A stretch of 44,944 bases of DNA from Bacteroidales bacterium (GTDB taxonomy: Bacteria > Bacteroidota > Bacteroidia > Bacteroidales > UBA12077). The stretch covers positions 1 through 44,944 of the forward strand of contig JAUWQL010000009.1 of assembly GCA_030611105.1 (NCBI GenBank), read 5' to 3'. Within the stretch, counting starts at the first letter, position 1, and every line of letters starts with the position of its first letter. Shown one piece after another: positions 23,359 to 26,512 of the stretch. The position numbers and the translations under genes are program-made. Under the pieces are notes generated by a model. It did not search any database and had not been told where the DNA came from. It saw only the letters and a program-made list of their open reading frames with translations.

Positions 23359-24735
23359 CTAAATTTTATCATATAGTTTTTTAATTGGCTCAATAAATTC
23401 ATCTATATCACCGGCTCCTAAAGTCATCAGAACTTCAGGTTTTTTATTCTTTAATATTTCCAATAGTTCAGCTTTTGTACATAAAGTTTTATTTTGATTT
23501 TTAATTTTATTAAAAATTAATTCTGAACTTACTCCCGGGATTGGCTTTTCTCGTGCCGGATATATATCCAACAAGATTATTTCATCAAGTAATTCCAGGC
23601 TTTCTGCAAATCCACTCACAAAATCTCTTGTGCGAGTATATAAATGTGGTTGAAAAATTCCTGTTATTCTTTTTCCCTTAAATAATTCTTTTGCTGATCC
23701 GATGGATGCTCTCAGCTCTTCAGGATGATGTGCATAATCATCAATATACACAAAATCATCACGTTGGATTTGATAATCAAACCGGCGTTGAATTCCTTTA
23801 AATTTCTTTAAAGAATTAAAAATCTCATCGTTATGAACACCAGACATTGTTGCTATTCCGATTGCTGCTATTGCATTTTCAAGATTCATTAAGCCAGGTA
23901 AACCTAGTTTTAAATTATTGATCCTACCTTTTATTCCAATAAAATCGAAAACATACAGTCCGTTCTCAATTCTAATATTTTCTGCTCTGAAATCAGATTC
24001 CTTGTCTAAAGAGTAAGTGTAAATTTCAATATCATCTCTTTCTGGGACATTAAAATCTAATCCAGCTTTTACTAATAATTTCCCTCCCGGATTAATCTGG
24101 TTTACAAACTGTTTAAATGCGTTTCTCAAATCATTTTCATCAGAATAAATATCTAAATGATCAGCATCAACAGCAGATATTATTGCTTTTTGTGGATTAA
24201 GATGTAAGAATGATCTGTCAAATTCATCCGCTTCAACAACTACATATTTACTATCCTTATCGGCTAAAAAATTGGTTTTGTAATTTTTTGAAATCCCACC
24301 TAAAAAAGCATTGCACCCCATTCTCGATTTTCTCATTAAATGAGCAATCATAGTTGTAATGGTAGTTTTGCCATGTGTTCCGGCTACAGCAATACATTTC
24401 TTTTCGCGTGAAAGTATTCCTAAAACTTCCGAACGCTTCTTAATCTCAAAACCTTCTTCAATAAAATAATTTAACTCCTTATGATTCTTTGGCATAGCAG
24501 GAGTGTAAACTACCAGTGTATTGTGTTTGTTTTTAAACTCTTTAGGAATATTTAAAATATCATCGCTAAAATGAATATAAATACCTTCATTTATTAAATC
24601 ATCGGTTAATGGTTTTGAAACTTTATCGTAACCCGCCACATTTTTACCAATAGTATTAAAATACCTGGCTATGGCGCTCATTCCAATTCCGCCAATACCT
24701 AAAAAATAAACATTATGTAATGTCTTAATATCCAT
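23359..24735 (-). CDS. murC: UDP-N-acetylmuramate--L-alanine ligase
   Basis: A 458-residue MurC, which adds the first amino acid, L-alanine, to UDP-MurNAc. The UDP-binding start is FLGIGGIGMSAIARYF (11-26). The ATP loop is AGTHGKTT (118-125), and DDYAHHPEE and QPHLYTRT mark the later domains. All three Mur ligase domains are intact. Its first 15 codons (24692-24735) are duplicated at 25357-25400 with 5 differences in 44 bp. murG, normally the direct neighbour, is separated from it by an ORF6N-domain gene whose stop lies 15 bp before this ATG. Transcription must pass through or start within the inserted unit, as no terminator is seen there. Confidence 0.96.
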   Translation of the reverse strand: MDIKTLHNVYFLGIGGIGMSAIARYFNTIGKNVAGYDKVSKPLTDDLINEGIYIHFSDDILNIPKEFKNKHNTLVVYTPAMPKNHKELNYFIEEGFEIKKRSEVLGILSREKKCIAVAGTHGKTTITTMIAHLMRKSRMGCNAFLGGISKNYKTNFLADKDSKYVVVEADEFDRSFLHLNPQKAIISAVDADHLDIYSDENDLRNAFKQFVNQINPGGKLLVKAGLDFNVPERDDIEIYTYSLDKESDFRAENIRIENGLYVFDFIGIKGRINNLKLGLPGLMNLENAIAAIGIATMSGVHNDEIFNSLKKFKGIQRRFDYQIQRDDFVYIDDYAHHPEELRASIGSAKELFKGKRITGIFQPHLYTRTRDFVSGFAESLELLDEIILLDIYPAREKPIPGVSSELIFNKIKNQNKTLCTKAELLEILKNKKPEVLMTLGAGDIDEFIEPIKKLYDKI

Positions 24736-24750
24736 TTTTGTTTTAAGCTA

Positions 24751-25296
24751 TTATTCGTCTTCGTTGCGTTTATATCCTATTTTCTTGCGTTTTGATTGTT
24801 CTAATTTTTCATGTTTCACCTGTTCTAATTGTTTTAAATATTCAAAAATCAACATAATCTTGTCATCTTGCTCTATTTCTTTCTTTTGCAATTGATCAAG
24901 CTTTTGTAAAATCTCTTTATGTGTTTCGAGTATTTCACGCATTTTGGTAAATACCCTTATTATTTGAATATTCACTATAATTGCCCGATCACTGTTTAAC
25001 ACGCTTGATAACATTGCAACACCTTGCTCTGTAAATGCCATAGGCATATATCGGATGCCTCCCCAACTTGAGGTGCCAATTTGGCGCCTCAAGTTATCAA
25101 ATTCTGATTGTATCATTTCAAACATAAAGTCTTCAGGAAAACGTTTTATGTTACGCCTCACCGCTCTCTTTAATTGCTTTGTTTCAACACCATATAATTC
25201 AGCTAAATCCTTATCTAACATTACCTTCCTGCCACGTATAACATAAATCTTGTTTGCTATGGCTTCATCAGGTAATATCGTGCTTAATTCACTCAT
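24751..25296 (-). CDS. ORF6N-domain protein inserted between murG and murC
   Basis: A 181-residue protein from the ATG at 25296 (a GTG at 25317 would add seven unrelated residues). Residues about 13-98 form an ORF6N domain: NKIYVIRGRKVMLDKDLAEL, VETKQLKRAVRRNIKRFPED, then RYMPMAFTEQGVAMLSSVL. ORF6N is a DNA-binding-type domain known from phage antirepressors and very common on Bacteroidota mobile elements. The C-terminal part (about 110-175) is a charged coiled coil ending in a Lys/Arg-rich tail, suggesting oligomerisation. It is foreign to the dcw cluster. A truncated second murC start lies upstream and the intact murC follows 15 bp downstream. An inverted repeat overlaps its likely promoter, suggesting autoregulation. 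The target is unknown. Confidence 0.85.
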   Translation of the reverse strand: MSELSTILPDEAIANKIYVIRGRKVMLDKDLAELYGVETKQLKRAVRRNIKRFPEDFMFEMIQSEFDNLRRQIGTSSWGGIRYMPMAFTEQGVAMLSSVLNSDRAIIVNIQIIRVFTKMREILETHKEILQKLDQLQKKEIEQDDKIMLIFEYLKQLEQVKHEKLEQSKRKKIGYKRNEDE

Positions 25297-25312
25297 AAAT
25301 AAAATATTTAAT

Positions 25313-25354
25313 ATCACAAAATACTATCTTAAATTTGAAGTCACATTTTGTGAT
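25313..25354 (-). promoter_or_regulatory. Inverted repeat, probable operator of the ORF6N gene
   Basis: ATCACAAAAT (25313-25322) and ATTTTGTGAT (25345-25354) are perfect 10-bp inverted arms separated by 22 bp. A nested TCACA-TTT-TGTGA occupies 25341-25353. On the minus strand the downstream arm merges with a -7-like TATTTTG just before the ORF6N ATG. The arrangement suits a dimeric repressor site; it could also be an element end. Confidence 0.45.
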
Positions 25355-25400
25355 TTCCAATCCCTATAAAATAAATATTATGTACTGTTTTAATATCCAT
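25341..25400 (-). pseudogene. murC': Truncated duplicate of the murC start
   Basis: From an ATG at 25400, 8 bp after the murG stop, the frame reads MDIKTVHNIYFIGIG followed by NHKM and a stop. The intact murC starts MDIKTLHNVYFLGIG. Over 44 bp (25357-25400 against 24692-24735), 39 positions agree. The five differences are two silent changes and three conservative ones (L/V, V/I, L/I). Identity ends abruptly within codon 15, at position 25357. The fragment occupies the place where murC would normally begin after murG. It is too short to be functional. Confidence 0.9.
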
Positions 25401-25408
25401 TCTCGATT

Positions 25409-26512
25409 TCAACTTAATTTTAAAACTTCCTCAGCAATAATTTTTGCGGAATCGCGTAAAGCCATTCCTTTAATATTTTCTGATAATTTTTTAATCTGTC
25501 CTTCATTATTAATCAAATCCAATGCAGAGTCAATTAATTTTTCACGTGCTTCTGCATCTTTAATCATAATTGCTGCATTTTGATTTACCAGTGCCATCGT
25601 ATTCATTGTCTGATGATCTTCAGCAACATTTGGCGACGGGACCAAAATAACTGGTTTCCCAACCAAACATAGTTCTGATATAGTTCCAGCACCTGCTCTC
25701 GAAATAATAACATCTGCAGAAGCATAAGCCATATCCATCCTAGTAATAAAATCGAGCACTTTTATGTTCTTATATCCCGATTCATCAGCTACTTTTTTTG
25801 CGTCATGGAAATAATATTTTCCTGTTTGCCATAAAAGCTGAAATTCAGACTTCCCTATTTTATTAATATCTCCTATTATACTCTGATTTACTGTTCGCGC
25901 TCCCAAACTTCCACCTATAACTAAAATTATTTTTTTGCCTTGCTCTAAATCAAAATGCTTAATTGCTTCTTCTTTGCTTTCAATTTTATCCAACAAATTC
26001 TGACGAACAGGATTGCCCGTTAAAATAATTTTGTCTTTCGGGAAATATTTTTCCATTCCTTCATAAGCCACACAAATTTTCTTAGCCTTCTTTGCCAATA
26101 ATTTATTTGTAATTCCAGCATATGAATTTTGCTCCTGAATTAATGTTGGTATTCCTATTTTATTAGCTATCCGTAAAACAGGCCCACTGGCATAACCCCC
26201 AACACCGACCACTACATCAGGTTTAAAATTTTTAATTATTATTTTCGATTTTCGTAAACTACTTATCAATTTAAAAATGAAACTAATATTTTTTACAGTT
26301 AATCGTCGCTGTAATCCGGCAACAGGTAAACCAATAATTTTATATCCAGCGGCAGGAACTTTTTCCATTTCTATTTTACCCAATGCTCCAACAAAAAGAA
26401 TATTAGTTTCAGGTTCAATTTCCTTTATAGCATTAGCAATAGAGATTGCAGGAAAAACGTGTCCTCCTGTTCCTCCTCCACTGATAATGATATTTTTATT
26501 CTTCTGTCTCAC
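25409..26512 (-). CDS. murG: UDP-GlcNAc transferase MurG
   Basis: A 367-residue MurG, which adds GlcNAc to lipid I to make lipid II on the inner face of the cytoplasmic membrane. The N-terminal glycine-rich loop ISGGGTGGHVFPAISIA, the middle GVGGYASGP and the C-terminal ILVIGGSLGARTVNQ and SRAGAGTISEL of the GT28 fold are intact. The start overlaps the ftsW 3' end by 17 bp. Normally murC would follow; here a truncated murC start (8 bp away) and the ORF6N gene intervene. Confidence 0.96.
   Translation of the reverse strand: MRQKNKNIIISGGGTGGHVFPAISIANAIKEIEPETNILFVGALGKIEMEKVPAAGYKIIGLPVAGLQRRLTVKNISFIFKLISSLRKSKIIIKNFKPDVVVGVGGYASGPVLRIANKIGIPTLIQEQNSYAGITNKLLAKKAKKICVAYEGMEKYFPKDKIILTGNPVRQNLLDKIESKEEAIKHFDLEQGKKIILVIGGSLGARTVNQSIIGDINKIGKSEFQLLWQTGKYYFHDAKKVADESGYKNIKVLDFITRMDMAYASADVIISRAGAGTISELCLVGKPVILVPSPNVAEDHQTMNTMALVNQNAAIMIKDAEAREKLIDSALDLINNEGQIKKLSENIKGMALRDSAKIIAEEVLKLS

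Follow-up and report, generated by a model that had tools for sequence, protein, structure and literature searches.

The window, i.e., the whole 44,944-nt stretch of DNA analysed here, belongs to a Bacteroidales MAG (3.77 Mb in 217 contigs, 89.7% complete) and holds an ORF6N-domain gene between murG and murC, together with a second, truncated murC start. With middling confidence, we consider this ORF6N gene to be an accessory chromosomal single gene that has been traded between congeners by recombination, and the truncated murC start to be a scar left by that trade.

An ORF6N Gene and a Second murC Start in the Cell-Wall Operon

Along the minus strand, murG is followed by the truncated murC start, the leader, the ORF6N gene, and the complete murC (Table 1); Pfam confirms the ORF6N, murG, and murC domains that a first-pass annotation of this DNA had named there. 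The ATG of the truncated copy lies 8 nt past the murG stop, at the distance that annotation had given, and its frame runs into a stop after 19 codons; murC begins with MDIKTLHNVYFLGIG, and the truncated copy reads MDIKTVHNIYFIGIGNHKM before that stop. The two copies share a 44-nt core that matches at 39 positions, and the 5 differences, described at first sight as silent or conservative only, are indeed 2 silent and 3 conservative ones. The weaker similarity noticed beyond this core extends the direct repeat to 58 nt at 83% identity (24692-24749 and 25357-25414).

Table 1. Positions of the features discussed in the text (window coordinates unless a locus or a contig of another genome is given).
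Feature	Position	Strand	Remarks
murG, complete	25409..26512	-	Pfam domains; 3' part diverged from close relatives
Weaker repeat extension into the murC leader and murG stop	25401..25414	-	pairs with 24736-24749
Truncated murC start (codons 1-14 plus 2 nt)	25357..25400	-	5/44 differences to murC of G000/G005/G012
Leader between truncated murC and ORF6N	25297..25356	-	lacking in the compact G005 and G012 alleles
ORF6N-domain gene	24751..25296	-	181 aa from the ATG at 25296; GTG alternative at 25317
Intact copy of the murC start (44 nt), resident type	24692..24735	-	2/44 differences to G005
murC, complete	23359..24735	-	Pfam Mur_ligase domains; 97% to G005
Excess-divergence stretch versus G005	24942..26264	-	murG 3' part, truncated murC, leader, ORF6N 5' part
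Sites of DUF4268 pieces	L050; L063; G037:C92:52452-52724; G037:C204:6890-7193; G454:C146:57780-58135

An imperfect inverted repeat, ATCACAAAAT...ATTTTGTGAT (25306-25322 and 25345-25361), spans the ORF6N leader and 5 nt beyond, and is possibly an operator; the RNA fold of this leader is unremarkable (z -1.05). A terminator search over 24600-25600 found none. murC is presumably read through from murG. When positions 24600-25450 were searched against their own genome, the other matches fell only inside the ORF6N gene (40 of 78 candidates scored).

The unit had been described as a single gene with no integrase remaining, and Pfam finds neither an integrase nor a transposase among the 25 of the 52 listed ORFs of the window that were scanned, a set that does not extend to the ORFs of the 19.5-22.5 kb and 27.7-35.7 kb regions. 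An integrase att site was considered and rejected, as no integrase was found among the scanned ORFs and the repeat, with 39 of 44 positions shared, is imperfect and not an identical att core.

Family and Distribution of the ORF6N Gene

The assignment to the ORF6N family is clear: the Pfam profile PF10543 is matched over its full length (positions 1-86 of 86) at 7.1e-36, with 122.8 bits for a cut-off of 27.8. Residues 6-176 also match the HMM of the PADLOC candidate PDC-S05 (E 1.8e-62), and a more distant match is to a PHROG anti-repressor (7.1e-31). Searching viral folds with the predicted model (pLDDT 78.6) leads to KilA-N/antirepressor DNA-binding models (best E 3.4e-6). The same model has no match in the PDB at E ≤ 0.001, and a sequence search of the PDB returns at best a de novo helical protein at E 0.022. 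No nuclease family was recognised in the protein by Pfam or NCBIfam, nor by a PDB fold match at E ≤ 0.001.

The gene had been called a phage-type regulator. The distant kinship with anti-repressor and KilA-N proteins agrees with this; the distribution does not, as the family is found in 154 of 395 Bacteroidia genomes (E ≤ 1e-20) and in only 5 of 50,697 phage records (E ≤ 1e-5). It is also rare in other collections, with 20 of 72,556 plasmid records (E ≤ 1e-15) and a single locus in viral contigs, where the scan finds close relatives only. Phage cargo was thus rejected as the main reading of this gene, given its rarity in phage, plasmid, and viral-contig collections.

Occupied and Empty murG-murC Junctions in the Genus

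Our collection holds 20 genomes of the genus, and murC and its upstream region can be read in 19 of them, the window's own genome (G000) included; G002, which has a murC fragment only, was excluded from the count. An ORF6N gene sits at the murG-murC junction in 8 of the 19 (G000, G005, G012, G013, G014, G016, G017, and G018), always in the direction of the operon. The remaining 11 junctions are empty: murC starts 14-17 nt after the murG alignment ends in 8 of them and 52, 72, and 262 nt after it in the other 3, so that the ORF6N gene must have been either added or lost. Relatives without the gene, for which a search had been proposed at the outset, therefore exist. On the species tree, the gene is distributed patchily (present in G017 and absent from its sister G008; present in G013 and absent from G004), and a site that is occupied in some relatives and empty in others is what one looks for in a homing gene.

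The truncated 44-nt murC copy is found in the window only among these 19 genomes. It had been reasoned that integration would fail as an idea if all relatives carried the ORF6N gene and the short copy alike, which is not the case here. The close relatives G005 and G012 have the ORF6N gene at the same place without any murC-start duplication, which is therefore no regular feature of ORF6N at this junction. No such duplication is visible in the 11 ORF6N-free junctions either, and in G018 at most 6-12 nt resemble the murC start, a weak vestige. The probable ORF6N start codon falls within the final murG codons in G005, G012, G013, G014, and G017. In G016 (L015 / L155), murG is separated from ORF6N, within the cell-wall operon, by a spacer that looks hairpin-like when read by eye.

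The ORF6N gene at this site is intact and under purifying selection: none of the 8 copies has an internal stop, and dN/dS is 0.07-0.21 in 8 congener pairs. These values and the dS comparisons were computed for 9 of the 28 possible pairs, the ninth (G013-G016) having a saturated dS. ORF6N dS is below that of both neighbours in 4 of 6 distant pairs, clearly so in G014-G017 (ORF6N 0.39, murC 1.41, murG 1.05), G000-G017 (0.56, 1.51, and 1.12, respectively), and G000-G018 (0.87, 1.73, and 1.17), and narrowly in G000-G014 (0.66, 0.99, and 0.73). In G000-G013 it is not lower (1.65, with 1.55 for murC and 1.54 for murG), and in the sister pair G000-G005 ORF6N (0.42) and murG (0.32) both exceed murC (0.17). 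The lower dS in these four distant pairs points to horizontal exchange of the ORF6N gene.

Origin of the Two murC Starts

The first-pass annotation had the incoming element supply its own murC 5' end, which our comparison does not support. Against murC of the sister G005, the downstream copy has just 2 differences in 44 nt; the upstream copy has 5 against each of G000, G005, and G012, and 7 against G018. For comparison, ortholog pairs in the genus have 9.9 differences on average. The downstream copy is thus the resident murC.

The murG 3' part to which the upstream copy is joined has only 89.7% identity to G005 and 88.7% to G012, when 300-nt bins outside 26200-25001 are at 92-99% to G005. A scan statistic delimits the excess divergence from G005 (Table 1), at 11.7% compared with 3.8% elsewhere; with regard to co-conversion of flanks, what was observed is this tract on the murG side. 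For the end of the leader and the 5' end of ORF6N, the closest relative is G018 (83% over 140 nt). In each of the three pairs among G000, G005, and G012, a tract of excess divergence overlaps the 5' end of ORF6N; since this includes G000-G012 and G005-G012, the irregularity is not peculiar to the window. A locally higher mutation rate could account for part of the higher divergence.

Owing to this divergent murG-3'/ORF6N-5' stretch, the scar cannot be read as a single fresh insertion. From the gene-restoring integration first proposed, what stands is a single gene, a murC left whole, and no integrase found; a supplied murC end is not supported.

One has to keep in mind that in a MAG of 217 contigs and 89.7% completeness, a divergence that shifts exactly around the feature could also come from the assembly, through the fusion of two co-occurring strains, with and without ORF6N, in one contig. 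We hold this to be very unlikely, as it needs two switches, one in murG and one inside ORF6N, and a similar divergence pattern exists between G005 and G012.

Exchange between congeners would account for the layout as follows. The ORF6N gene would be gained, lost, and exchanged between species of the genus at murG-murC by homologous (allelic) recombination. At the window, an occupied chromosome may have recombined with a resident one, homologously at one end and illegitimately at the other; the upstream parent would have left its native murC start, still attached to its own murG, where the ORF6N-bearing segment joined, and the downstream parent would have contributed the whole murC. The upstream join would accordingly be the non-homologous one. 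The donor of the ORF6N-bearing segment was not found among the 19 genus genomes.

Flanking Repeats at Other ORF6N Genes

A further suggestion had been to look for duplicated murC starts at other ORF6N genes; a duplicated gene end, with the gene kept whole, does recur there. In our flank test, the 500 nt upstream of a gene are compared with the 500 nt downstream for ungapped direct repeats, and a score of at least 20 is deemed positive. The input was 160 loci, one collection having been cut to the 80 best among 584 or more, with 154 ORF6N genes within the length limits and with 500 nt on both sides. Setting aside 14 genes with another ORF6N within 1.5 kb left 140 solitary ones with 20 positives, from which L076, array-like with ORF6N-like neighbours, was removed by hand.

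Flanking repeats are present at 19 of these 139 solitary ORF6N genes, at 1 of 158 random genes (110-320 aa), and at 1 of 29 solitary GNAT genes (Fisher P 5.0e-6 against the random genes and 3.6e-6 against random and GNAT genes together). The random controls come from 20 stretches of 18 genomes and from the second ORF6N sample only, the first having neighbourhood controls only. Among neighbourhood controls, 2/151 are positive versus 11/76 ORF6N genes in the first comparison and 4/57 versus 14/89 in the second, a modest contrast; with all controls pooled (8/395), Fisher P is 8.9e-7. Freestanding DUF559 genes (L414-L453) are positive in 11 of 37 solitary cases, so such repeats are not unique to ORF6N; many of the DUF559 repeats are palindromic motifs of the CCTTCTCC...GGAGAAGG type and differ in this from what flanks ORF6N.

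In the same test, the murC-start repeat of the window scores 30. None of the 158 random genes, from 18 other Bacteroidia genomes, reaches 25, though 1 of 30 GNAT control genes scores 38 and a few genes near other ORF6N genes also score higher (2/151; 3/57 at a score of at least 26). As the repeat is short and gene-internal, one could imagine that the murC start underwent a short tandem duplication and that, independently of this, an ORF6N gene landed between the copies. Such a coincidence of two rare events, given that ORF6N genes are enriched in flank duplications and that the murC start is duplicated in 0 of 11 ORF6N-free junctions, we regard as extremely improbable.

Among the ORF6N positives, repeat identity goes from 100% (L100 and L199, 22/22) down to about 83%, and leader lengths among the loci of the flank test range from 1 to 322 nt. 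At L233, the repeat covers about 147 nt of the ssb 3' end, and in the sister G254 the two flanks enclose a single copy and no ORF6N gene. At L213, it covers 226 nt of the 5' end and leader of a TonB-dependent receptor gene; the sister G281, which shares one flank only, has one copy and no ORF6N match. Neither repeat has a further match in its own genome. The L144 repeat covers the dgkA 3' end, and that of L265, a locus abutting a true tRNA-Ser, the 3' end of this tRNA; the L265 flanks lie apart in the relatives searched, so the empty site cannot be read there. In G189, a repeat of about 110 bp (query 1021-1134 of L265:1200-4600) has dozens of matches and lies beside the L265 ORF6N gene.

Dispersal was checked for 4 of the 19 positives and found for L268 and L050. 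L268 was dropped as a tRNA 3' end, no tRNA being found and part of the repeat being dispersed. L050/L063, with a DUF4268 5' end, was likewise discarded as a second murC-like case: its 5' and 3' pieces are joined without the middle elsewhere in the genus, and the L050 repeat belongs to a dispersed element. DUF4268 pieces joined in this way at several places (Table 1) look like a mobile element whose copies have lost their internal part. ORF6N genes also form tandem arrays at L222, L059, L047, and L110, where the leader is repeated in some, and several ORF6N copies in other genomes carry stops, which suggests turnover.

All matches of the L213 locus elsewhere in its genome, G125, lie within query 1481-2005, i.e., the ORF6N gene, and in this one genome the copies do not share the conserved terminal sequences of a transposon or IS. 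Such confinement to the coding region is also what a homing-like selfish gene could produce, where the ORF6N protein or a partner cuts the empty allele, repair from an occupied chromosome copies ORF6N in with its flanks, and aberrant repair leaves gene-end relics; patchy presence at the same site, dS below the neighbours in 4 of 6 distant pairs, and an exchange centred on the ORF6N 5' side go in the same direction. We find it decidedly unlikely, as no nuclease was recognised by Pfam, NCBIfam, or PDB fold (E ≤ 0.001) and the viral fold search leads to DNA-binding proteins of the KilA-N/antirepressor kind.

Coding Constraint in the Truncated Copies

An insertion that duplicates its target over tens to hundreds of bases, after which the gene-restoring copy is kept and the other decays, has in its favour the excess of flanking repeats (19/139 ORF6N genes versus 1/158 random and 1/29 GNAT genes), their range of identity from 100% (L100, L199) to about 83%, and sisters with one copy and no ORF6N for L233 (both flanks) and L213 (one flank). 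Decaying duplicates would be expected to show mostly nonsynonymous changes on the relic side.

When the window is pooled with L213, L233, and L144, nonsynonymous changes make up 12 of the 31 in coding sequence, versus 22.3 expected if the truncated copy were neutral (binomial P 0.0001 under full neutrality and 0.011-0.021 with the intact copy constrained). Taken singly, P is 0.0095 for L213, 0.0095 for L233, 0.12 for L144, and 0.25 for the window, where the comparison is too short. L050 was left out of the pooled count post hoc, once its dispersed element had been recognised; with it, the count is 28 nonsynonymous changes versus 46 expected, in the same direction. When changes are polarised by a sister genome, they divide 7:5 at L213 (5 unresolved) and 4:4 at L233 (2 unresolved), with P of 0.05-0.11; this balance, suggestive only, would speak against a decaying target duplicate. 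In the window itself, the 44 nt of the truncated copy contain no stop and, with the silent and conservative differences given above, read like another functional murC start.

As the data differ from the decay expected, joins of two functional alleles are favoured, and a simple neutral target duplication appears weakened. Relics that keep coding constraint and do not sit on clearly longer branches, leaders whose lengths imply no fixed end of the unit, and repeats that are partly dispersed (L268) or belong to a dispersed element (L050) make target duplication unlikely in our eyes. Exchange by recombination, our preferred reading, would extend to the other ORF6N genes with a duplicated gene end, which may have arisen likewise.

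Relation to Known Systems

The gene shares with the BRO-N-KilA-N network its full-profile ORF6N match, its PDC-S05 and anti-repressor matches, and its viral KilA-N-like predicted fold; it differs in being a solitary chromosomal gene in a cell-wall operon, rare in phage records and viral contigs. Free-standing homing genes are known from intronless homing in T4-like phages. The ORF6N gene is like them in its site-specific presence or absence and in being more similar than its flanks in several pairs, and unlike them in that no nuclease motif was found, in being cellular rather than of phage, and in its gene-end relics.

Homology-facilitated illegitimate recombination is described for incoming linear DNA in the laboratory (PMC3240628), and with one homologous and one illegitimate end it could place donor DNA next to a resident gene end that is left behind; at murG-murC, however, the process is deduced from sequence. 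Helper-embedded PICIs are integrase-borne satellites that target the inside of a gene and carry Bro-network proteins (PMC10111431). Here, in contrast, no integrase was found, and the repeats are imperfect, unlike a fixed att core.

Literature searches on ORF6N and PDC-S05, and on ORF6N with horizontal transfer in Bacteroidetes, gave no account of the family's spread. On these searches, ORF6N genes accompanied by gene-end relics appear to be a new combination of parts of known kinds, and one that is only partly explained. A bolder proposal, which we put forward tentatively and with more doubt than belief, is that ORF6N genes of Bacteroidota and other bacteria are single-gene mobile elements free of integrase, transposase, and known nuclease, which would enter genes or their edges in a homing-like manner and leave the target alive, with a whole gene end on one side and the resident end as a relic on the other; at murG-murC, one such gene would have settled in an essential operon.

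The ORF6N/PDC-S05 family has so far been treated as a phage-type regulator or a defence candidate. The enrichment of flanking repeats and the empty-site comparisons make its mobility testable, and the murG-murC site, with occupied and empty alleles within one genus, offers a ready test case.
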